This document shows positions 7,205 to 16,457 of a DNA stretch of 17,577 nt, one piece after another. Made by a program: the position numbers and the translations under genes. Positions within the stretch are counted from its first letter, which is position 1, and every line of letters starts with the position of its first letter. The notes under the pieces are model-generated. The model did no database searches and was not told the DNA's origin. It was given only the letters and a program-made list of their open reading frames with translations. Origin of the DNA: a bacterium (GTDB lineage: Bacteria > UBA9089 > CG2-30-40-21 > SBAY01); contig JBFLYA010000071.1 in NCBI GenBank assembly GCA_040757115.1, positions 1 to 17,577 of the forward strand. Reading direction: 5' to 3'.

Positions 7205-7798
7205 CTAACTCATATCTTTGTTTGGTAAAATAGCCTCATAGACAAACTGTCTTCCTCTTTCATCAAGTAACTCTTCATTTCGACTTACCAGGTGTAATTT
7301 GTATAAGTTAAGTAGCCTTGTAGAGCTGGTATTAATTTCAAGACCCATTAAATCCGCTAATTCTCTGGCAGAGAGTTTGCCTTTTTTTAATACATAACTT
7401 AAGGTATCCCGAAGATAGGTGTTTAATACTCCTAATACCTGATAAGCTTCATTTTCATCAAAAGATAGTATGGCTAATTTCTTACGCTCTAATGCTACTT
7501 CAATATTCTCCCGCTGGGTTGAATTTGTTCCCTTTAACAGGATGTGTTTATCTCCATACTCGCCAGAATTAAGTCTGGTGATAAGTTTAGCAATAATCTC
7601 ATCTGCACAGGAATAGTCAATAATACCAATGCCTCCAAAATCTAATATAATTATTGTCCCTTCTGGTTCTTTTTCTAACATACCTTCAATAGCCTCTCGA
7701 ATCCTTTTGCCTGTTTGGCGAGTGACTAAATTAAAAGAGCCATTGGTAAGGCACGTAGCCATAATATTTTTTAGTTGATAAGTGTTATGCCTGGTCAT
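7205..7798 (-). CDS. STAS-like DUF4325 protein with C-terminal winged helix
   Basis: Residues 15-110 form a STAS-like alpha/beta domain of the DUF4325 type: TNGSFNLVTRQTG followed by IIILDFGGIGIIDYSCADEI, where the strand-Asp and the Ser-x-x-Asp-Glu turn are family hallmarks. Residues 125-190 form a winged helix (LSARELADLMGL then TSSTRLLNLYKLHLV), suggesting DNA binding. Such proteins usually pair with GHKL ATPases, in an arrangement recalling anti-sigma/antagonist switches. The likely partner here, the STAS-GHKL gene at 15452-16375, is 7.6 kb upstream, beyond the defence island. Start: ATG 7798 with GAGG ten bases upstream; an internal ATG at 7762 has no ribosome site. A role as a transcriptional switch for the island is inference. 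Confidence 0.75.
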   Translation of the reverse strand: MTRHNTYQLKNIMATCLTNGSFNLVTRQTGKRIREAIEGMLEKEPEGTIIILDFGGIGIIDYSCADEIIAKLITRLNSGEYGDKHILLKGTNSTQRENIEVALERKKLAILSFDENEAYQVLGVLNTYLRDTLSYVLKKGKLSARELADLMGLEINTSSTRLLNLYKLHLVSRNEELLDERGRQFVYEAILPNKDMS

Positions 7799-7873
7799 GG
7801 ATATTTTACCTCAAATTATTCACTTAAAAGGCTACATCAAGTTTCTTTTCCATTATACTTTATCCTTTTATCA

Positions 7874-8070
7874 ACAGCAATTCTCGGTGAAATTTTGCAG
7901 GTAGTATTGACAATGGATCTCAGGCAAAAGCAAAAATGTTTTTCGCCAAGATTCTTGGTAAAGAGAGAATGTAGTGAGGGACTTTAGTCCCGTTATAATG
8001 CTTGTGGTTACTATAAGACGCACCTAAAGGTGCTCACTACAGTCTAGTTACATTCACCGAGAATTGCTGT
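7874..8070. mobile_element. MITE with 18-bp inverted ends and 7-bp duplication
   Basis: ACAGCAATTCTCGGTGAA (7874-7891) and its exact reverse complement (8053-8070) bound 197 bases without a gene. TTTATCA occurs directly on both sides (7867-7873 and 8071-8077), a 7-bp duplication. A solo end lies at 787-803. A smaller palindrome (7970-8041) is nested within. The ends differ from the GTAA family, so this is a second element type; the parent transposon is unknown. It sits between the DUF4325 gene and the promoter of the structured RNA. Confidence 0.75.
7970..8041. repeat. Small palindromic repeat with TGTAGTGAG ends
   Basis: TGTAGTGAG (7970-7978) faces CTCACTACA (8033-8041). Within are two short hairpins, GGGACTTTAGTCCC and GCACCTAAAGGTGC. 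It resembles REP-like units of the GTAGTGAGCACCTTTAGGTGC type. No target duplication was seen. Confidence 0.6.
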
Positions 8071-8086
8071 TTTATCAAAAAAACTC

Positions 8087-8115
8087 TTGACAAATTTATT
8101 AAAATGTAGTATATT
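8087..8115 (+). promoter_or_regulatory. Strong sigma-70-type promoter of the structured RNA
   Basis: TTGACA (8087-8092), a 17-base spacer and TATATT (8110-8115) give a near-consensus promoter on the plus strand, opposite to all surrounding genes. The predicted start at about 8122 falls three bases before the basal stem of the RNA. From the base before -35 to the base after -10 it closely matches the promoter of the minus-strand operon at 15394-15422 (about 27 of 33 positions agree). Confidence 0.8.
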
Positions 8116-8121
8116 ATTATA

Positions 8122-8228
8122 ATAGAGTTTGTGAGTAAGGCCTATACGGTTCCCAAGGGGACTTTGCTCTGTGAGTTGAAGAATGATCCTTGGGGGGTAC
8201 CATATAGGGGTCGCAAACTCATTTTTTA
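8122..8228 (+). ncRNA. Structured small RNA convergent with DUF3800 gene
   Basis: The transcript folds into a long interrupted hairpin. The basal stem is GAGTTTG (8125-8131) with CAAACTC (8214-8220). After an asymmetric internal loop (8132-8140 and 8209-8213) comes an 18-pair helix: 8141-8158 (CCTATACGGTTCCCAAGG) with 8188-8208, with two mismatches and a three-G bulge (8192-8194). The apical loop is 8159-8187. A T-run (8222-8227) follows the basal stem, so it may act as its own terminator. The end meets the stop codon of the convergent DUF3800 gene. Candidate structured RNAs named for their association with DUF3800 genes are known from comparative genomics; this may be one of them or a relative. 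A short 6S-like RNA is the alternative. Function is unknown. Confidence 0.75.
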
Positions 8229-8888
8229 TGCAGATAAATTCTCCTCCTCAAAACATATCTTTTCCTTGAAAATCTCATACCAGTCTAAATTTTTATTCTC
8301 ATATTTTCTAAATATTCCCCAACAGAAAAGGTCTACTGCCTGTAGCCCTTTACTCGTTTTGGAATCTAAATGAAAGACATTAAGTTTCACCTTAGGGGAA
8401 AGGCTTCCTTCTAATTGATAAAGAAGGTATGCGTCGAATGTTCTTTGTTCTTCTTTGGTCTTACACCGATCAAGAGTTATAATTATTCTGGAACTTGCTT
8501 TTTTAAGTGGGCACCTTTCAATTATTAACCTTGCCAGGTAGTTATATAGCCTTTCTTTATCTTTCCTTAAAGTTTCGGGAACTTTCTTTTTGTTGAAAAC
8601 TACCACATAAAGGCTAAATGGATCATTTTTAATTTGTCTATAAAAGTATCTTTTTGTCCCTATACTTGTTTTAGACCCTTTAAGCTCTAAGGAGATATTC
8701 TTTTTTCTGACGTAATTAACCTTACTTTTAAGTGTCCTTGCAACAGCCTTCTCTATGTTTCTAATTACAAAACCACTTTCAATTACCAGCAAAGTTATTA
8801 TGAAATAGCCAGTCGTCTTCGGCTTTGAGAAATCAAACCCTAAATCACCACTTTCATCAAGATATAAATATAACATTTTCGTATTCAT
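8226..8888 (-). CDS. DUF3800 protein (RNase H-like fold, predicted nuclease)
   Basis: The N-terminal LYLDESGDLGF (residues 7-17) is the DUF3800 hallmark: the first-strand Asp and Glu are the presumed metal-binding acids of an RNase H-like site. Other family marks are SLELKGS (about 66-72), IIITLDRCK in the centre, and the closing FHLDSKTSKGLQAVDLFCWG and KYENKNLDWYEIF helices. The length of 220 is typical. The family is common in phage-defence and mobile regions and is thought to be a nuclease. The start is uncertain: ATG 8888 has GGAG only one base upstream, and ATG 8876 (MLYLYLDESGD) fits the family better but its GGAG is 13 bases away. The sequence up to 8875 is copied from inside the PLD gene, so the native 5' region has been replaced. 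It is last in the operon and convergent with a structured RNA. Confidence 0.85.
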   Translation of the reverse strand: MNTKMLYLYLDESGDLGFDFSKPKTTGYFIITLLVIESGFVIRNIEKAVARTLKSKVNYVRKKNISLELKGSKTSIGTKRYFYRQIKNDPFSLYVVVFNKKKVPETLRKDKERLYNYLARLIIERCPLKKASSRIIITLDRCKTKEEQRTFDAYLLYQLEGSLSPKVKLNVFHLDSKTSKGLQAVDLFCWGIFRKYENKNLDWYEIFKEKICFEEENLSA

Positions 8889-9051
8889 TCTCCAGTTCTT
8901 TAAGTTTTTCTAGTTCGGCCCAGGGTCTAATAGAATTACCAATAGTCCTGCCGGGTGCTGGTGAAGAGTATCTTATATAGTTTGATTTTTTATGATTCTC
9001 AAGGCTTAAGTTAAGTTGTTGTGACTCCATATGATTCCCATATTTTAACAT
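8857..9051 (-). pseudogene. Chimeric scrap: methyltransferase 5' end joined to PLD-gene segment
   Basis: This 64-codon frame is stitched from two upstream genes. Bases 8918-9023 match 14251-14356, the first 36 or so codons of the large methyltransferase, at 105 of 106 positions (QQLNLSLENHKK through to IRPWAE). Bases 8875-8914 match 11216-11255, inside the PLD nuclease gene, at 39 of 40 positions (LEKLKELENEYEN). Three bases separate the two pieces. The start ATG overlaps the ART stop (TAATG) and the frame runs into the DUF3800 gene in another phase. A functional small protein is unlikely but possible, since the frame is open and coupled. Confidence 0.8.
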
Positions 9052-9377
9052 TATTCTTTTCTCCCTCCGCCAAGAAATTGTATCAAATTATCATCCCATT
9101 TTTGAATCATATATACATGTTTACGAGGATTTTTTAATATTTGAGGGTCTATATCAAACTTTAAGTAATATTTGACTCTTTTTAACACATTCAGATTCAT
9201 TGATTGCCAACAATACCATGCTATTACTCCATCATTTGTATTAGGACCTAAGTTGGTAAAATACCATCCAGTACCATGTGCTGAATCCATTGCTATCCAC
9301 GGAGCGGATGGCCTAAATTTTCTAGTTCTCATAATATTATCGTAATTTTCTTTACTTGTATAATGGTAAACTATCAT
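9051..9377 (-). CDS. ADP-ribosyltransferase-like toxin domain (Tox-ART-HYD1 type)
   Basis: A single small domain of 108 residues. YHYTSKENYDNIM (residues 4-16), FRPS (21-24), and HGTGWYFTNL (34-43) follow the pattern YHYT...I...L.PS.....G.G.YFTDL of the HYD1-like ADP-ribosyltransferases first noted in polymorphic toxins. The H in YHYT would contact NAD. The rest (VKYYLKFDID, then VYMIQKW) gives the later strands. No secretion signal, so it is probably cytosolic. The ATG overlaps the TGA of the macro-domain gene (ATGA), a coupled pair. With that partner it resembles an ADP-ribosylation toxin with a macrodomain antidote. Target unknown. Alternative: an RNA 2'-phosphotransferase-like or other ART-fold enzyme. 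Confidence 0.72.
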   Translation of the reverse strand: MIVYHYTSKENYDNIMRTRKFRPSAPWIAMDSAHGTGWYFTNLGPNTNDGVIAWYCWQSMNLNVLKRVKYYLKFDIDPQILKNPRKHVYMIQKWDDNLIQFLGGGRKE

Positions 9378-10282
9378 TTTTTTATTTCTCCCAAGGGAAC
9401 TATTGCATATTGTAGATGTTTGACATACTCCGGTATTTCTGCCTCATCCTTCTCATGAACTACAATATCGATTTCTTTTAAGGGACCATGATGAAACTTA
9501 GTAAAACAATAGTTAATGGAAATCAGAAGGAGTAGTACGGCTGTACTTATAGATATACCTCCTCGGCCACTACCCAAAATAGGCATAATTAGTTTAGAGA
9601 TTCTCATAATAGCTGTTTTTTCAAAGATTTGTTCAACACATTTGCAAATGGAGCTCGGTTCTGTTTTAAAGCCAATAGATTCTGCTTTTAATACTGAAGC
9701 TATTAATAAAATATTAACATTAAGATTGTAAAAGGAAGATAACTCGATGATAGTGCCTACTGGATAAATTTCGTTATTGTTTCGTTGACAATCTACTTCT
9801 CTTTCTTGCAATTGACCTTTAATAAATTGTTTAAGTTCTGAAATTCTATCAGGACAATATGTGATATTAAATGAACCAAATGCAGTTTTAGTATCCACAA
9901 GCTCATCAATAAATGTTGCATCAACGGGAAGTACTACTGCTACTGTTTTATCTAAACCTGAAATATCTTCAATCTTGCCTATTTTGATGTTAACTTTATA
10001 TTTCCCAAATGTAAGAGGAAGAGGTTCATTCTTAATGTTTATTTTTTCCTTCACCCATTTGTTTTGTTTCAGAATTTGAATAACACCACAACCCACAAGC
10101 ATAACTCCCATTATGAATAATAGCCATCTTGTTAAATCTGTTAGAGTTACTGGAAAACAGAAACCTGTTATTTTATCATATTTAAAAATGGAAGATAAAA
10201 TGAATAAGAGCCCAACTAATATTGTCAAAACAATAGGATTTTTGGATATTAATATTATAATCTCTTTTATCTCTTTAATCAT
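9374..10282 (-). CDS. Two-TM membrane protein with cytoplasmic macro domain
   Basis: Two transmembrane helices (about residues 16-34 and 52-72) form an N-terminal hairpin. A macro-type ADP-ribose-binding domain follows from about 93 to 282: VAVVLPVDATF (114-124), AFGSFN (134-139), YPVGTIIEL (173-181), the glycine-rich PILGSGRGGIS (234-244) matching the macro phosphate loop P.IG.G.GG, and IDIVVHE (271-277). It may therefore bind or remove ADP-ribose at the inner membrane. Start: ATG 10282 has GGAG eight bases upstream. An earlier ATG at 10300 overlaps an upstream stop (TGATG) and would add six residues. The stop overlaps the ART start by four bases. Similar TM-macro proteins occur in defence loci. 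Whether it is an antidote, sensor or effector is not shown. Confidence 0.72.
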   Translation of the reverse strand: MIKEIKEIIILISKNPIVLTILVGLLFILSSIFKYDKITGFCFPVTLTDLTRWLLFIMGVMLVGCGVIQILKQNKWVKEKINIKNEPLPLTFGKYKVNIKIGKIEDISGLDKTVAVVLPVDATFIDELVDTKTAFGSFNITYCPDRISELKQFIKGQLQEREVDCQRNNNEIYPVGTIIELSSFYNLNVNILLIASVLKAESIGFKTEPSSICKCVEQIFEKTAIMRISKLIMPILGSGRGGISISTAVLLLLISINYCFTKFHHGPLKEIDIVVHEKDEAEIPEYVKHLQYAIVPLGEIKK

Positions 10283-10299
10283 AACTTGTTCTCCATCCA

Positions 10300-10449
10300 T
10301 CAATAATATTTCCCTACAAAATGTTTTTCTATCATCCCCCTAATCTCCTTACCATTTACAAGTTCTACTTCTGTCTTTTTATCAGATTGAGTTGGTATAT
10401 TATAAATAACAGTTTTGCCAAATGTGTATAATATTATCGTATGTGGTAA
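10300..10449 (-). pseudogene. Possible C-terminal remnant or tiny overlapping frame
   Basis: An open frame of 49 codons without a start codon except an internal ATG 11 codons before its stop reads LPHTIILYTF...KKTEVELVNGKE...FVGKYY. Its composition looks protein-like after about 10400, where the PLD gene has ended, and its stop overlaps ATG 10300 (TGATG) of the macro gene. That is how a real preceding gene would be coupled. I do not recognise the family. It may be the tail of a lost gene or chance. Confidence 0.3.
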
Positions 10450-11488
10450 TCAGTCTAATAACGCCACGACCTATGGATTTAAGTCGATGAGTTTGTAGGA
10501 AATTATCCATTTCATCATATCCCTCATCCCTCGGCATCAACAGAACATAATGAAATATTCTAGTACCAATCTCTCTTACAACTAAAATTGGACGACTATC
10601 CGATGGATAAGGTTTATCTCTTTTAGCTGCAAATTCGATTTTTATATTTCTGTTTCTCCTGCTGAATACTACGGGTCTAACTTCTTCCTGGCCTATTTTT
10701 GTAGGAGATATTTTTTCAAACAGATATGCTCTTTCTGATGAATTAGGTTGAACTTTGAAGAATTGCCTGTTTACATCCACATTAAAATGGATTTGAGTCC
10801 ATCGATCTCCGGCTTTTGGCACCTCAGCAACCAACATCTTTGAATTTTCTTCGACAGGTATTATTTCAATCTCCTCTTTCTCCTCCTCAGATATTTCTTC
10901 TGGTTCAACTTCCTCGATAATTTTCCGCTTTCTCCGAATAATTCTATTTTGTCTGGCGAGTTCTATTATTTCATCATTAATTTCTTTTAAAGAATCCGAA
11001 TGGATTTCTAAAAACCGCTCCATATCTCCAAGATCAACTTCTTCACCTGGCTCGGAAATAAAAACAGAATAAGCTTCAATATTATTTTTTAATCCTCCAT
11101 GAGTAAGATTACCTGAACCAACAATGATAACTTGTGTTCCATCATTTCGAATAAAGTGGACAATCTTGGGATGAAAAACACCTTCCATTCGTTTATAAAA
11201 TATTTTAACTTTGAAATTTTCGTATTCATTTTCCAGTTCTTTAAGTTTTTCTAGTGCAGCAGGATCAGTAATAGCATCTATTCCAATAATTAAATCAGTA
11301 CTACCTCGTTGCAAAAACCTTCTAACATCCGGATCGTCCAAGAGACCACCTATTCCTGGTCGAGAAGCAAAAGCGAATATGCCTCTCCATAATATGGTCT
11401 CCGGGAAAATTAATTGATCGATAATAGCCTCAATAAGATAATGTGGATTTTGACTATGTGGATCCTGAATGTAAAAATTATATTGCAT
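10400..11488 (-). CDS. PLD-family restriction endonuclease (NgoFVII/BfiI-like)
   Basis: Residues 1-145 form a phospholipase D-type nuclease domain with one HKD motif: H106-P-K108 in VFHPKIVHFI, then GSGNLTHGG (124-132, with N127) and the closing NNIEAYS (E138). A single HKD implies a dimer with one active site, as in BfiI. A charged linker (about 185-214, EEVEPEEISEEEKEEIE) leads to a C-terminal domain (218-362) starting MLVAEVPKAGDRWTQ, which resembles the B3-like DNA-recognition part of NgoFVII-type enzymes. Start: ATG 11488 with AGGGGGAT six bases upstream; a longer frame to 11512 is less likely. It overlaps the SPPYW methyltransferase by 11 bases, as expected for an R-M unit. Bases 11216-11255 are duplicated at 8875-8914. 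Confidence 0.82.
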   Translation of the reverse strand: MQYNFYIQDPHSQNPHYLIEAIIDQLIFPETILWRGIFAFASRPGIGGLLDDPDVRRFLQRGSTDLIIGIDAITDPAALEKLKELENEYENFKVKIFYKRMEGVFHPKIVHFIRNDGTQVIIVGSGNLTHGGLKNNIEAYSVFISEPGEEVDLGDMERFLEIHSDSLKEINDEIIELARQNRIIRRKRKIIEEVEPEEISEEEKEEIEIIPVEENSKMLVAEVPKAGDRWTQIHFNVDVNRQFFKVQPNSSERAYLFEKISPTKIGQEEVRPVVFSRRNRNIKIEFAAKRDKPYPSDSRPILVVREIGTRIFHYVLLMPRDEGYDEMDNFLQTHRLKSIGRGVIRLITTYDNIIHIWQNCYL

Positions 11489-12344
11489 TTTTATCCCCCT
11501 GTTGTGATTCACTCATCAACTCTGAATAGAACTTCACCGTTTTTCCTTTTGCCTTCGTCTTTGGTGGCTTCATAAAAATCAAAATATGCTCATGGACATT
11601 TTTAAAAAGAAGGTTAGGTGGATATGGATAACTTCCAAATATCGGTCTTTGAGAACCCCAGGAGCCCCACTTACCACCAGTGCCGTTTTTATTCCAAATA
11701 ACCTCATTTACTAATACAAAACCAATATCCCTTAACCGAATAATAAAATCTGCTGCTAAAGGAAAAGTCAGAAGACCATAATCGGTATGCTGGTTTACAT
11801 TAGCAGTTACTAGACATATTTTGCGACCAGGCATTAACACCCTATAACATTCTTCAAAAACAGGTTGAATTTCCTCAAAGAATTTCGTGTACATATTAAT
11901 ATTGCCCAGATTGATCTCTTTATTCCCATAATCTGCTTTATTCCAATAAGGTGGACTTGTTACAATGAGTGCAATAGAATTATCTTCAACAAAACCTAAC
12001 TCCCTACTGTCACCGATGTTAGTAACAAGCTTATCTCCAGGATTAATATTTTTTTCTTCCAGATCATTTCTCAGGATATTAAGATAATCCTCATTTTGTT
12101 CAACACAAATAGCTTTTCTATCTAATTCCAGAGCAATCCTGCCCGTAGTTCCAACTCCTGCAAAAGGGTCTAACACTGTTTCCCCGACAAAAGTAAACAT
12201 TTTTATTAGTCTTTTAGGAATTTCCTCTGGAAAAACAGCCGGGTGTTTAGGATGTTTGATATTTGCAATCTGCCATACCGTCAATGTATATTCGCGCCAC
12301 TCATCCTTTGTAATTTTACTCCGCTCCTTTATTTTTGAATCCAT
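11478..12344 (-). CDS. Site-specific DNA methyltransferase, SPPYW (N4-cytosine or N6-adenine)
   Basis: Amino-methyltransferase of 288 residues. It starts with a motif X-like WQIANIKHPKHPAVFPEEIP, then motif I DPFAGVGTTG (59-68), motif II ICVEQN, motif IV TSPPYW (129-134), and a C-terminal part with WNKNGTGGKWGSWGSQRP. SPPY is most typical of N4-cytosine enzymes but also occurs in some N6-adenine enzymes. The AdoMet-binding half precedes the catalytic half, a gamma-like order, whereas most SPPYW enzymes have the opposite order. Start: ATG with AAGGAG inside the last codons of the upstream methyltransferase. It would protect one strand of the site cut by the PLD nuclease, which follows with an 11-base overlap. 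Confidence 0.88.
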   Translation of the reverse strand: MDSKIKERSKITKDEWREYTLTVWQIANIKHPKHPAVFPEEIPKRLIKMFTFVGETVLDPFAGVGTTGRIALELDRKAICVEQNEDYLNILRNDLEEKNINPGDKLVTNIGDSRELGFVEDNSIALIVTSPPYWNKADYGNKEINLGNINMYTKFFEEIQPVFEECYRVLMPGRKICLVTANVNQHTDYGLLTFPLAADFIIRLRDIGFVLVNEVIWNKNGTGGKWGSWGSQRPIFGSYPYPPNLLFKNVHEHILIFMKPPKTKAKGKTVKFYSELMSESQQGDKNAI

Positions 12345-12347
12345 ATA

Positions 12348-14360
12348 TTACAACTCCTTTGTTTTGTTATTTTTCTTTGTATCAATTTCATTTTCTCTTC
12401 CGCAGACAATTATAGATCTCGTCAACTCTTTGAAATAAGTATATTTTTCTGTCGGCATATCAACAAGTTCTAATAATATTCTGTCAATCTCATTTATATT
12501 CTCTTCAGCGTTATAAGGACAATAGGTAATAGACTTTACTTTGGAATTATTACTGACTATGGGTTTTTTACTAATAGATTCCCATAGTTTAATGCTGTTT
12601 TCTTCTACAATAGTTTTTTGCTTTGGGGACAAATCATTAATACTATAAGGCACTCTTTTTATAAAGGAAAGATTTAAATGAAAACCATCCCCTTCAACTC
12701 GCCAAAGCCAATATAGTATCCTGCTTGTAAGTATGCCATAGGCAATATTTGCATCTTTTTCAGTTTTAAATGAGATCGGAAATAAAGTTGAATATGAATT
12801 TTCTTCGTCATTTGTGGAATATGGGTTAAATCGATATATTGAAAGCCAATTATATGAGGTCCTCCCGACAAATATCCTGTTTGGAGTATGCTTATTAGAA
12901 TTATCTTCAATAATATCTTGCCTTAATCGACTCTTTCTGTTTAATAGTTTAAAATATAAAGTTTTTTCAAAATCAGTTCCGATTTTAGGAATGCTTTGTT
13001 TTATATTAAGATTTTCTAAACAAGTATGTGTTATGTTTTTAAAAAGAGATGTGCGATTTCTACTGTTCCATCGCAACAACGGAGTTGTAAAAATAGATTT
13101 TTTATTGTTCTTGTTTTGGTCAATGAATATAATCGTGTTTCGTGTTTTAACATCATCACCAAATAATGAATCCGGAGTTCTATCAAAATTAGTAAAGTAG
13201 CAAATTCTATTAATGTTCATAATGTCTTCCCTGATTTTACAAAATTCCCGGCCAGTATTGTAAGTAATTGAAAGAGGAACAACTATAGCACCCGCAGAGT
13301 GTTGAGGCTTGCATACAGACCACATTATTCTAATAAAATCCGGATATAAATAATCCCCCCTAATTCTTTTAGAATACGGAGGATTTGTAACAAAAAAGGT
13401 GAAATCATTTATTATAGAAAATATCTTTTTTATGAGACTCCTATTTAATTTTGTAGCATCCATGACTGCGAGATTTTTTTTAATTGTTTGATAATAATAC
13501 CAGGGTCTATCAATATTAACATCAGTTTGACTTAAGCAAAATGTTAATAAATTAAACGCACTGGATTGAATTGCCTGTCTACTAATATCTATACCATATA
13601 TCTTTTCTTTGATAAATCGTATTATATCCTCTATTCTATTGGGTATGAATTTTTCGTTGATATAGTATTCTACGATTGTTTTTAAAAATAATCCAGAACC
13701 ACAGGCAGGATCTATCCATTCACCCTGTAAAAAATCTAACCTATCCTTTTTCTTTTCAACAATATTTTTTATCATGAAATACGCAACATCTGATGGTGTA
13801 TAATAAATACCAAATTCCCGTTTTTTCATTCGCTCAAATCCATTTTTCAAGAATAGTTCATTGTCCGTTTCATAAATTTCTAATATATATGGATATAGAT
13901 CTAAAAACATCTCATTATATGATAACTCGCATAATGATTGAGTGCTTATATTATTTAGCCATTTTTCTAAGGGGTTAATGTCTAATTTAATATACCCATT
14001 ATAAAACCACATTACACTTTCTAATAAGCCTGCATTTTTATTTACATTATTGGTAGAAACTCCTGTGAGCCACATACTTAAAATGGCATTTGTGAGAAGA
14101 TTTACATTCTTTCCATAATCGGTAGGTGTATTTTCTATTAATGGTGTGTGAACATTAAGATTGTTTTTATAGAAATGGCTTAATTCTTCTAACATATTGA
14201 GTTCTTTAGCCCTTTTCTTCATTTCTGCAGATATTGTTAAAATCTTTTCAGCCCAGGGTCTAATAGAATTACCAATAGTCCTGCCGGGTGCTGGTGAAGA
14301 GTATCTTATATAGTTTGATTTTTTATGATTTTCAAGGCTTAAGTTAAGTTGTTGTGGCAT
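12348..14360 (-). CDS. Large N6-adenine DNA methyltransferase (NPPY, type I/IIG-like)
   Basis: A 670-residue protein. After a helical N-terminus comes FGIYYTPSDVAYFMIKNIV (183-201), motif I WIDPACGSGLFLKT (215-228), YGIDIS (255-260), VMDATKL (299-305) and motif IV VTNPPYSKRIRGD (324-336), the pattern of N6-adenine methylases of type I HsdM and type IIG proteins. Residues 440-640 (NRIFVGRTSYNWLSIYRFNP...) look like a target-recognition region, so no HsdS is needed. There is no nuclease motif at the N-terminus, so cleavage would be left to the PLD protein. Ribosome site AAAGGAAATGAG before the ATG. The first 36 or so codons are duplicated at 8918-9023. It is four bases from the next methyltransferase. 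Confidence 0.88.
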   Translation of the reverse strand: MPQQLNLSLENHKKSNYIRYSSPAPGRTIGNSIRPWAEKILTISAEMKKRAKELNMLEELSHFYKNNLNVHTPLIENTPTDYGKNVNLLTNAILSMWLTGVSTNNVNKNAGLLESVMWFYNGYIKLDINPLEKWLNNISTQSLCELSYNEMFLDLYPYILEIYETDNELFLKNGFERMKKREFGIYYTPSDVAYFMIKNIVEKKKDRLDFLQGEWIDPACGSGLFLKTIVEYYINEKFIPNRIEDIIRFIKEKIYGIDISRQAIQSSAFNLLTFCLSQTDVNIDRPWYYYQTIKKNLAVMDATKLNRSLIKKIFSIINDFTFFVTNPPYSKRIRGDYLYPDFIRIMWSVCKPQHSAGAIVVPLSITYNTGREFCKIREDIMNINRICYFTNFDRTPDSLFGDDVKTRNTIIFIDQNKNNKKSIFTTPLLRWNSRNRTSLFKNITHTCLENLNIKQSIPKIGTDFEKTLYFKLLNRKSRLRQDIIEDNSNKHTPNRIFVGRTSYNWLSIYRFNPYSTNDEENSYSTLFPISFKTEKDANIAYGILTSRILYWLWRVEGDGFHLNLSFIKRVPYSINDLSPKQKTIVEENSIKLWESISKKPIVSNNSKVKSITYCPYNAEENINEIDRILLELVDMPTEKYTYFKELTRSIIVCGRENEIDTKKNNKTKEL

Positions 14361-14409
14361 ATTAGCTCATTTCCTTTCTTTAGTTACATCAACTTGATAA
14401 CAGCAAAAA

Positions 14410-15333
14410 TTAAAATGAATTTAGTAGTTTTTCTAATTGTTTTGAAATTACGAGGGAATTTTCCAAATTGATTCTGGCTAACCGTTTTGCCTCAGCAATT
14501 AGTTTTTTTTGCACATCCTCAATTCTCTTCGCATCTTCTAATGGCTTGGGAGATGAGTCTATAGCAATCACTCTCTGTAAATTGTCTCTTATTTGCCTAA
14601 TATTTGCATAGTGATAAGATAAATTAAATACTAATTGGCTATTACCCAATAGTCCTAACCAGCCTATGTTTATCATTGAGTCCCAAGAATCGGTTATAAA
14701 ATAACAAAAATCACCCTGATATTTACTTTCAGGTAATTGAGAAAATTTAGCAAGAAAATCATCATCCCATTTTATCTCATTAATAATACTTTGAATTAGT
14801 TCTCTTTTTCGTTTCTTATCTTCGTCAGTACTAAAAAGATATGATGATTTGGTATAGGTTAGAATCTCTTGACTCGTTTTAATCTGATTCCCTAATGATT
14901 CAACTTGCTTCTTCTCCTGGTTTAACATTTCAGATAATATCTCTACTTGATGACGGATATTTTTAAGAGTTTTCTCAGTATTGGTAGCAATAGAATCTGC
15001 TCTAACGAGTTGGGTATAGGACAGATCATTATTCTTTTTCATTTGTAATTGTTGTTGTTGAAATAATTGTGTTTGTGTACCCATTTCATTAAATAACTTG
15101 GCGACATTCTCAGCATTTTTCTGAGATTCACGACGAGTATCATTAAGTGCCACAATAGCAACAAAACAGGCAACGGTAGTCATAAAGCAGGAAATGATAG
15201 TCATAAAATTCATAATATTAGAGAATGTAAAAGTTCCTTTCTCTCTCTTCCTATCAGTAACATACCATATAAGTAAGATTATTCCATATAAACTGAGTCC
15301 CCCTAAAAACCAACCTATCATTAAGCCTAACAT
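14410..15333 (-). CDS. Membrane-anchored coiled-coil protein, first gene of the island operon
   Basis: I do not recognise a family. Two transmembrane helices (about residues 4-25 and 41-64) are followed by a long coiled coil (about 66-165, rich in Gln, Lys, Glu and Asn, e.g. KLFNEMGTQTQLFQQQQLQ) and a mostly helical C-terminal domain (175-307) with an aromatic patch (FCYFITDSWDSM, then WLGLL). This layout of two helices, a coil and a helical head is common in membrane sensors or effectors of defence systems. It is the first gene after the promoter at 15394-15422, with AAGGATG about ten bases before the ATG. Role unknown; it may anchor or regulate the products of the operon. Confidence 0.6.
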   Translation of the reverse strand: MLGLMIGWFLGGLSLYGIILLIWYVTDRKREKGTFTFSNIMNFMTIISCFMTTVACFVAIVALNDTRRESQKNAENVAKLFNEMGTQTQLFQQQQLQMKKNNDLSYTQLVRADSIATNTEKTLKNIRHQVEILSEMLNQEKKQVESLGNQIKTSQEILTYTKSSYLFSTDEDKKRKRELIQSIINEIKWDDDFLAKFSQLPESKYQGDFCYFITDSWDSMINIGWLGLLGNSQLVFNLSYHYANIRQIRDNLQRVIAIDSSPKPLEDAKRIEDVQKKLIAEAKRLARINLENSLVISKQLEKLLNSF

Positions 15334-15373
15334 CTTTTCTTAACATCCTTTCTTAAGATTAAGGTTTCAATGC

Positions 15374-15385
15374 GTTCAATTGAAC
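15374..15385. promoter_or_regulatory. Perfect 12-bp palindrome at the operon start site
   Basis: GTTCAATTGAAC reads identically on both strands and spans about +2 to +13 of the transcript predicted from the promoter at 15394-15422. Such a position is typical for a repressor or control-protein site. No C-protein gene is visible nearby; the DUF4325 winged helix is the only obvious DNA-binding candidate. Confidence 0.45.
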
Positions 15386-15393
15386 TCATAAAT

Positions 15394-15422
15394 AATATAC
15401 CATATTATTCTAAATCTGTCAA
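15394..15422 (-). promoter_or_regulatory. Promoter of the defence operon
   Basis: Minus strand: TTGACA (15422-15417), a 17-base spacer and TATATT (15399-15394). The start is expected near 15387, giving a 5' leader of about 54 bases to the ATG at 15333. An A/T-rich run (15423-15452) lies upstream and could act as an UP-type element. The -35 to -10 region closely matches the promoter of the structured RNA at 8087-8115. Confidence 0.8.
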
Positions 15423-15451
15423 GTGTTTTTTTTAAATTTTTTTAAATTTTT

Positions 15452-16375
15452 TCACGAAATTTCAGGAAGGATAATACTTATTTGTGTTCCTGGGAAGAAA
15501 CTAAGTGCAGATTGTTGAGGTTTAGTAGTATCCCATTCAGGCACTATGCCCAGTTTAGCTGTTCCTGAGCGAATCATAAACTTACCACCCCATTTTTGTA
15601 CCAATTTTCTTACATTTGTTAGTCCATGCCCTCTACCTATATCATCATACCGGGATGCACCTTCAAATAAAGCAAGCCTGATTGCTTCCAAATCGGACCA
15701 ATCTTTATAACGACTACTGTACTTATGGGTAAGAGAGTCTTTTATTCCTATCCCTAAATCCATAACCGCAATCTTTACCACATACTTGCCTAACCTTTTT
15801 TCGTAAAGGTACCTTTGAATGCCCACATACCCCGCAGATTGGCTATGTTCCGGAATATTCTGACAAATTTCTGATAAAGCGACAATAAAGGAATCAATGG
15901 CTTGAGTATCATAGTTAAGATTCGTCTTTAAAATAGTTTCTGCCCTTTGTTTTACTCTGTCCACAATAGTATGAATATCATCTGTCCCTTCTATCTTTGT
16001 AATTTCAAGCAAGACATCTGAGTGTCTACTTCGCAAGAACCGATCTTCTATTTTTATAGTGGAAGTATCTATTTCAAAGACATTGCCTGCCTTCTCCAAA
16101 AAGTCCATCCGCTCAAGATACTTTAACACATCTGTTAATTGAGGCAAGATAAGTATTGGAATAATGTCTGATTCCTTCTTCAAATACCAACCGATTTCCA
16201 ATAACCCAACCATCCCATAAGGGTCGATAAACTCAGCTTTGGCTATATTGATAATGGCTCCATTTTTTATACTATCCTTCTTAGAACTTAATTGGGAAAA
16301 TAGCCTTTCAAATGTATTTTCATCTAAGGATGTTGGTGAGGATAAACTATCTGCTATGCGATCTATAATCTTCAT
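15452..16375 (-). CDS. STAS-like plus GHKL ATPase regulatory protein
   Basis: Residues 1-100 form a STAS-like domain (IKNGAIINIAKAEFIDPYG... then IPILILPQL); the antagonist-type serine is replaced, as the turn reads DPYG. Residues 135-307 form a GHKL ATPase: N-box EICQNIPEHS, G1 VMDLGIGIKDS, G2 GRGHGLTNVRKLV and the final FFPGTQISIILP strand. No kinase phospho-acceptor domain is present, so it resembles an anti-sigma-type switch kinase rather than a sensor kinase. Start: ATG 16375 six bases from AAAGGAG; an adjacent ATG at 16378 is also possible. It ends 30 bases before the operon promoter. DUF4325 proteins such as that at 7205-7798 are its likely partner. It may control the operon downstream; inference. 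Confidence 0.82.
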   Translation of the reverse strand: MKIIDRIADSLSSPTSLDENTFERLFSQLSSKKDSIKNGAIINIAKAEFIDPYGMVGLLEIGWYLKKESDIIPILILPQLTDVLKYLERMDFLEKAGNVFEIDTSTIKIEDRFLRSRHSDVLLEITKIEGTDDIHTIVDRVKQRAETILKTNLNYDTQAIDSFIVALSEICQNIPEHSQSAGYVGIQRYLYEKRLGKYVVKIAVMDLGIGIKDSLTHKYSSRYKDWSDLEAIRLALFEGASRYDDIGRGHGLTNVRKLVQKWGGKFMIRSGTAKLGIVPEWDTTKPQQSALSFFPGTQISIILPEIS

Positions 16376-16457
16376 CATCAGCTCCTTTCAATCCCACCTC
16401 ATAGGGGTAGCATTTACTGCTTCACAACATGAAGCCATAGATAATGTTCTCTAACTC

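Follow-up and report, generated by a model that had tools for sequence, protein, structure and literature searches.

Why would a bacterium keep, side by side, two unlike DNA methyltransferases and a nuclease of the phospholipase D (PLD) type, and why do their genes lie between a kinase-like and a repressor-like gene? The locus is on contig JBFLYA010000071.1 (GenBank assembly GCA_040757115.1), in a stretch of 17,577 nucleotides analysed as a whole and called here the window. The answer we consider likely is that the three genes form a BfiI-like, type IIS-like restriction-modification (R-M) trio, carried as cargo of a CapK-like/CapS-like defence cassette that probably controls the R-M genes. What does this answer rest on? 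On the gene set and its conservation, the folds and catalytic residues, the geometry of the cassette and a palindrome, all read from sequence and model; from these we infer the bases, strands and site involved, the cutting, the nuclease dimer and the regulation. The trio is laid out as follows.

12348..14360, minus strand: M1, DNA methyltransferase of N6-adenine type (type IIG/Eco57I-like), 670 amino acids (aa); Pfam N6_Mtase E 5e-11, Eco57I E 1.8e-6
13374-13385, minus strand: NPPY motif of M1
11478..12344, minus strand: M2, SPPYW methyltransferase, probably N4-cytosine, 288 aa; Pfam N6_N4_Mtase E 1e-39, permuted order
11943-11957, minus strand: SPPYW motif of M2
10400..11488, minus strand: R, PLD-B3 nuclease, 362 aa counted from the ATG at 11488
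10919..11488, minus strand: PLD catalytic domain of R, about residues 1-190, with H106, K108, N127 and E138 of a conserved HxK...N...E pattern
10403..10858, minus strand: B3 DNA-recognition domain of R, residues 211-361

Transcription runs through 10400-14360 in the order M1, M2, R. The first in-frame start codon of R is a GTG at 11512, which gives an open reading frame (ORF) of 10400-11512; the ATG at 11488, preceded by AGGGGG, appears the likelier start. With this ATG, M2 and R overlap by 11 bases, and the gap between M1 and M2 is 3 bases. ORFs and Pfam matches thus bear out the initial annotation, which had described an NPPY methyltransferase gene, an SPPYW methyltransferase gene and a single-HKD PLD gene overlapping or four bases apart; the three make up a minus-strand operon. 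R has one HKD motif, its Pfam matches (PLDc_2, E 2.7e-5; RE_NgoFVII, E 4.7e-4) both lie slightly under the curated cut-offs, and searches of NCBIfam and PADLOC returned no close family for R or M1.

What kind of nuclease is R? The AlphaFold2 model has a mean predicted local distance difference test (pLDDT) score of 91.3 and a predicted template modelling score of 0.88. Searched with Foldseek against solved structures, its top full-length match is BfiI (2c1l, E 8.7e-14), followed by SauUSI and R.NgoAVII. Residues 211-361 of the model align with the DNA-bound recognition domain of BfiI (3zi5) at Z 12.4 (root-mean-square deviation 3.5, 138 aligned residues; a model-based comparison) and with the B3 domain of LlaJI.R1 (6c5d) at Z 12.5. 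The C-terminal domain had earlier been likened to NgoFVII; this holds for the B3 fold, but the nearest solved structures are the B3 domains of BfiI and LlaJI.R1. A sequence profile finds BfiI (E 8.6e-6), which a single-sequence search of the PDB missed. The spacing of the catalytic H, N and E is 0/+20/+31 in BfiI, in the clostridial relatives and in a second nuclease type named here after Salipiger, and 0/+21/+32 in the window and its nearest relatives, and H, K, N and E are kept in those relatives that possess a PLD domain. Given the BfiI-like spacing and the structural match to BfiI, one active site built from two PLD halves is the mechanism expected for R by analogy (PMC4081073, PMC4267653).

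How far does the likeness to BfiI go? BfiI has the site ACTGGG 5/4, two methyltransferases and a PLD-B3 nuclease (PMC4081073, PMC4267653), and its two methylases act on opposite strands of the asymmetric site (PMC4267653). The window shares the M-M-R operon, a single-HKD PLD domain followed by a B3 domain, the H-K-N-E constellation, the lack of an ATPase gene within the trio and the two methyltransferases expected for an asymmetric site. The M-M-R order recurs in two plasmid operons, where the nuclease shares 63-66% identity with a BfiI fragment and both methyltransferases carry SPPY. R differs from BfiI in being only about 13% identical to it in the structural alignment. As far as anatomy shows, the window system would be BfiI-like with an independently recruited modification pair. 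The earlier proposal of one R-M unit of the BfiI kind is therefore well supported by the gene set, the full-length structural match, the catalytic constellation and the gene order. PLD-type restriction enzymes are already known as a class (PMC4081073); the combination of a large type I/IIG-like methyltransferase with a PLD nuclease had been flagged as matching no named system, and as far as could be searched it does not.

Other known systems share parts of this anatomy. The NgoAVII and CglI systems have the PLD-B3 architecture of the R protein, but they have a helicase-ATPase and one 5-methylcytosine (m5C) methyltransferase, whereas the window trio has two amino-methyltransferases; no helicase/ATPase subunit of that type is among the window genes beside the trio. 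LlaJI combines two methyltransferases and an asymmetric site with a B3 domain on a McrB-like subunit and a nuclease partner (PMC1459862, PMC7680126). The window resembles LlaJI (two m5C methyltransferases, McrB-like R1 with B3, McrC-like R2) in the B3 fold of its recognition domain (6c5d) and differs in that its nuclease is of PLD rather than McrBC type. DISARM was rejected as a candidate: PADLOC gave only weak DrmC similarity, a DrmA match in the GHKL part of the CapK-like protein and no DrmB. Pbe and MADS were rejected too, their PADLOC matches being weak and domain-level.

Could the three genes be chance neighbours? Single-sequence scans with the PLD protein had no match in genome contigs or viral contigs, and the protein was not found in 18 other genomes of the window's phylum sample, nor in phages. 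Since the searches with R gave just two plasmid relatives, the M2 subfamily was chosen as bait, and scans with its alignment returned 57 loci from the genome collection and two clear loci from viral contigs. The loci anchored on M2 come from Planctomycetota, Pseudomonadota, Acidobacteriota, Chloroflexota, Bacillota, Actinomycetota, Bacteroidota, Verrucomicrobiota, Nitrospirota and Candidatus Binatota. Where the M2 match is strong (56 loci), M1 adjoins M2 in 55, and a PLD gene adjoins M2 or lies within about 2.4 kb in 50, often overlapping its neighbour. The six loci without a PLD gene are four contig ends (L028, L031, L053, L068), L062, which has a B3 protein only, and L040, which lacks both partners. 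On Salipiger plasmid pTPRO3, a single ORF holds both M1 and M2, fused. The clustering of M1, M2 and PLD genes is far from chance.

Does the linkage also hold from the side of the nuclease? A PLD profile was run against samples of Planctomycetota, Chloroflexota, Acidobacteriota and Pseudomonadota (about 1,390 genomes) with methyltransferases ignored, and the neighbourhoods of 17 matches were read, the methyltransferase calls there being motifs read by script and not curated families. Three new homologues match past the PLD domain: two (L143, L145) adjoin exactly M1 and M2, and one (L144) adjoins a DPPY methyltransferase-like gene. A fourth PLD homologue, found with the B3 domain, adjoins two other methyltransferases. 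Distant relatives that match the PLD domain alone have methyltransferase-like neighbours in L132, L135, L137 and L140 and none in L134, L142, L147 and L148. Judging by these neighbourhoods, PLD homologues regularly lacking methyltransferases, named in the initial annotation as the finding that would speak against a unit, are not seen among the full-length homologues; those free of methyltransferases are the distant, PLD-domain-only relatives.

What, then, are the genes at either end doing? Those that bear on control of the trio, and the loci compared with it, are these.

15452..16378, minus strand: CapK-like protein, first cassette gene; GHKL ATPase (HATPase_c E 1.1e-6) with a STAS-like N-terminal part recognised by eye
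15394..15422, minus strand: predicted cargo promoter TTGACA-17-TATATT, directly behind the CapK-like gene, from sequence and alignment
15370..15389, minus strand: conserved palindrome ATGAGTTCAATTGAACGCAT, directly after the promoter and candidate operator for it
7205..7798, minus strand: CapS-like protein, last cassette gene; STAS DUF4325 (E 4.8e-7) and a winged helix-turn-helix (HTH_24), with Ser63
Cassette loci besides the window: L133/L156, L178, L179, L181, L182, L184, L185, L187-L191, L197, L200

The whole cassette lies on one strand and reads CapK-like, membrane/coiled-coil protein, M1, M2, R, ThsA-type macro-domain protein, HYD1-type ADP-ribosyltransferase, DUF3800 protein, CapS-like. 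Its end genes are 7.65 kb apart (7799-15451); in the 11 further cassettes that were measured the distance is 2.1-10.6 kb. The two genes frame 2-11 kb of mostly R-M cargo, in the order and orientation of the window, at 15 of the 16 informative loci, which fall into two groups; the exception, L183, has the kinase-like gene with no repressor-like gene within 17 kb. One group, the G228 family, has both ends 2-11 kb apart in 12 of 13 informative loci, and its cargo is mostly R-M genes (BsuBI/PstI-like, an SPPY methyltransferase with GIY-YIG, a D12 methyltransferase) or a MazF-like toxin gene. In L197 and L200, from the window's own phylum, the two end genes enclose N6_N4 methyltransferases with Mrr-type nucleases. 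Methyltransferase-like genes occur in 13 of the 15 cassettes, against 22 N6_N4_Mtase stretches in a whole 4.3-Mb genome. A relative of the CapS-like protein, 56% identical, ends another cassette. Relatives of both end genes also stand next to each other, free of cargo, on Nostoc and Cytobacillus plasmids, and a similar adjacent pair is annotated on a Vibrio plasmid. As a separate observation, another cassette of the G228 family (L133:2254-6015, L156:11412-14277) carries genes for a short PLD protein, an SPPY methyltransferase and a 368-aa protein without a Pfam family, and the same cassette has an Eco57I-like methyltransferase gene followed by a BsuBI/PstI-like gene.

In the description of CapK and CapS from 2026, single-stranded DNA activates CapK, which phosphorylates CapS, the repressor of an adjacent immune operon; capS immediately follows capK for 443 of 443 capK homologues (PMC13373217). 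The window shares with this pair a GHKL kinase-like protein and a STAS-winged helix-turn-helix protein, a conserved serine, a promoter palindrome and the association with defence genes. The serine lies within a DYSCADE stretch in all 15 CapS-like proteins of the cassettes, and Ser63 of the window would be the equivalent of CapS Ser54. A STAS/GHKL pair as an undescribed frame was considered and dropped, the pair being already known as CapK/CapS (PMC13373217); because of that publication, novelty is claimed solely for the separation of the two genes and for the palindrome.

Is there a switch for the cargo? The pattern TTCAATTGAAN4ATTGAA, with these bases invariant, recurs in the same position in nine genomes from the two groups (window, L182, L184, L187, L190, L197-L200), each time behind a sigma-70-type promoter (TTGACA/TATAAT). 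Across 1.3 Mb of other loci, whose base composition differs, TTCAATTGAA is present at two places. The simplest reading is that the palindrome is the predicted operator of the CapS-like protein at the cargo promoter. Palindromes elsewhere in the window, from a general repeat search, were set aside, some for want of conservation. The window promoter stands before the membrane-protein gene, and the R-M genes start 50 bases downstream of that gene, so that the promoter reaches them only presumptively. The end genes frame the cargo, and the promoter with its palindrome immediately follows the kinase gene; the R-M genes are hence probably under repression by the CapS-like protein. The strongest alternative, which we think unlikely all the same, is that the geometry reflects no more than a common hot spot for insertion, where the CapK-like and CapS-like genes tag an integration locus and exert no control over the R-M cargo. 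Its appeal is that the cargo is highly variable, that the palindrome behind the kinase gene is missing in some cassettes and that conserved genes lie past the CapS-like gene in some relatives, as at a fixed locus. It accounts poorly for one promoter-palindrome element kept at the start of the cargo in nine genomes of two groups, and regulation of neighbouring immune operons by CapK/CapS is established (PMC13373217).

Is the nuclease itself a fixed part of the system? The Salipiger type has a related PLD domain and a different C-domain; its model (pLDDT 77) has BfiI as top structural match, with Z 9.5 between the C-domain and 3zi5. On the M2 tree the effector labels need 14 changes overall, and branches with strong support require three or more for each of the two main types, which indicates that a shared modification pair has repeatedly changed its nuclease. 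In Clostridia and one Chloroflexota locus a window-type C-domain is joined to a PLD domain nearer the Salipiger type. Paenarthrobacter plasmid pB and Cellulomonas alba have no PLD domain; there the genes of M1, M2 and a separate 161-aa B3 protein adjoin a divergent pair of genes:

L003:2745-9444 and L062:4640-11323: form of the system seen in actinobacteria, with M1, M2, the 161-aa B3 protein and divergent genes for a McrB-like AAA protein and a putative PD-(D/E)xK protein

The AAA protein belongs to AAA_5 and matches McrB structures at E 2e-8 to 1e-7, with midasin scoring better; its partner has a PD-(D/E)xK-like stretch by eye and no Pfam or PDB match. A methyltransferase pair beside such genes recalls LlaJI, from which this version differs in having its B3 domain as a separate protein. 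The window nuclease type, for its part, is paired with a different methyltransferase pair in Acinetobacter and in one actinobacterium. As a further observation, sphingomonad-type loci (L045-L048, about 11840-12960; L022:12146-14091) have a PLD nuclease with yet another C-domain, divergent to the methyltransferases, and nearby a 280-aa protein and a protein with a novel-to-Pfam N-terminus and a Salipiger-type B3-like domain, neither matched in Pfam.

Such exchange invites the idea that M1 and M2 alone form the modification unit and that the PLD protein is an accessory effector, itself exchangeable, whose target is not the unmethylated M1/M2 site but features of phage DNA, or modified DNA. The alternation of two unlike PLD-B3 types on the methyltransferase tree, the different methyltransferase pair found with the window type in Acinetobacter and the actinobacterium, and the resemblance of the PLD domain to that of SauUSI, an ATP-dependent type IV-like enzyme, all fit this idea. 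We nevertheless judge it improbable, since the nuclease gene almost always accompanies the methyltransferase pair, often with overlapping genes, the C-domain matches B3 domains that are site-specific, and the helicase parts of SauUSI are absent here.

Which bases would the pair mark? The M1 profile matches N6-adenine methyltransferases in the PDB (7lni, BseCI, TaqI, type I HsdM) and NPPY is invariant across 22 aligned M1 relatives; for M1 and 21 relatives Pfam recognises the methyltransferase part alone and no nuclease domain, and a nuclease fold that Pfam does not recognise is possible. SPPYW is invariant across 21 aligned M2 relatives of 52-64% identity, and the PDB profile matches of M2 include both N4-cytosine and N6-adenine enzymes. 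M2 is 52-66% identical across phyla; M1, at 24-34% among loci, is far less conserved. From the motifs, M1 probably marks adenine and M2 probably N4 of cytosine. That the two read different sites, one protecting against R and the other being a passenger or marking a second target, would suit the unequal identities and the large C-terminal region peculiar to M1, which could set another specificity, but is very improbable given that both are kept together in 55 of 56 loci and fused in Salipiger, and that asymmetric-site systems such as BfiI and LlaJI require two methyltransferases (PMC4267653, PMC1459862).

How might the BfiI-like trio then work as cargo of the cassette? M1 and M2 would modify one short, probably asymmetric site, one strand each, with M1 acting on adenine and M2 on N4 of cytosine. 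R would be a homodimer whose two PLD halves form a single metal-independent active site; its two B3 domains would read the unmethylated site, and R would cut nearby without ATP. The CapS-like protein would repress the R-M genes until phosphorylation by the CapK-like kinase released them.

Several observations weigh against this account. Compared with the methyltransferases of the BfiI-like operons, M1 has no meaningful similarity and M2 a weak, motif-level one, so the strand rule of BfiI applies here as an analogy. NPPY and SPPYW do not fix the target base, and the SPPYW profile matches adenine methyltransferases too. The PLD domain is absent in two actinobacteria. Two unlike C-domains serve one methyltransferase subfamily, which means that either both read one site or the site is not constant. 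The published CapK and CapS genes are adjacent (443 of 443), whereas the window pair is split by cargo; the N-terminal helix-turn-helix of published CapK was not identified in the window's CapK-like protein; and several cassettes have no palindrome directly behind the kinase gene.

The remaining cargo genes are the following.

14410..15333, minus strand: membrane/coiled-coil protein, no Pfam family above cut-off
9374..10303, minus strand: membrane-anchored ThsA-type macro-domain protein, ThsA_Macro E 7.3e-11
9051..9377, minus strand: HYD1-type ADP-ribosyltransferase, Tox-ART-HYD1 E 2e-7
8226..8888, minus strand: DUF3800 protein (E 4e-17), between the ADP-ribosyltransferase and CapS-like genes

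A segment of a trypsin-like protein in cassette L200 is related to the membrane/coiled-coil protein. The ADP-ribosyltransferase gene overlaps the macro-domain gene by 4 bases, and the two proteins are possibly an ADP-ribosylation toxin/antidote pair.

What does the locus mean for the family? PLD-type restriction enzymes have so far been known mostly from BfiI and NgoAVII/CglI, and here is a widespread family, with dozens of loci in about ten phyla, in which a conserved modification pair is served by interchangeable nucleases. Two features would surprise a specialist: that effectors are exchanged, and that the CapK...CapS cassette is split. A wider proposal, which we advance tentatively and at somewhat less than even confidence, is that exchange happens at two levels: a conserved pair making N6-methyladenine and N4-methylcytosine would keep the site while effectors swap (two PLD-B3 types and a McrBC-like one with free B3), and whole R-M systems would swap as cargo of a DNA-damage-responsive split CapK...CapS controller. 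The family offers a natural experiment on how modification keeps in step with restriction once a nuclease has been replaced, and with M2 52-66% identical across phyla, a single methylome could yield the site for much of it. The cassettes suggest, further, that certain R-M systems sit as cargo in a promoter-bearing slot of a DNA-damage switch and are inducible by it.

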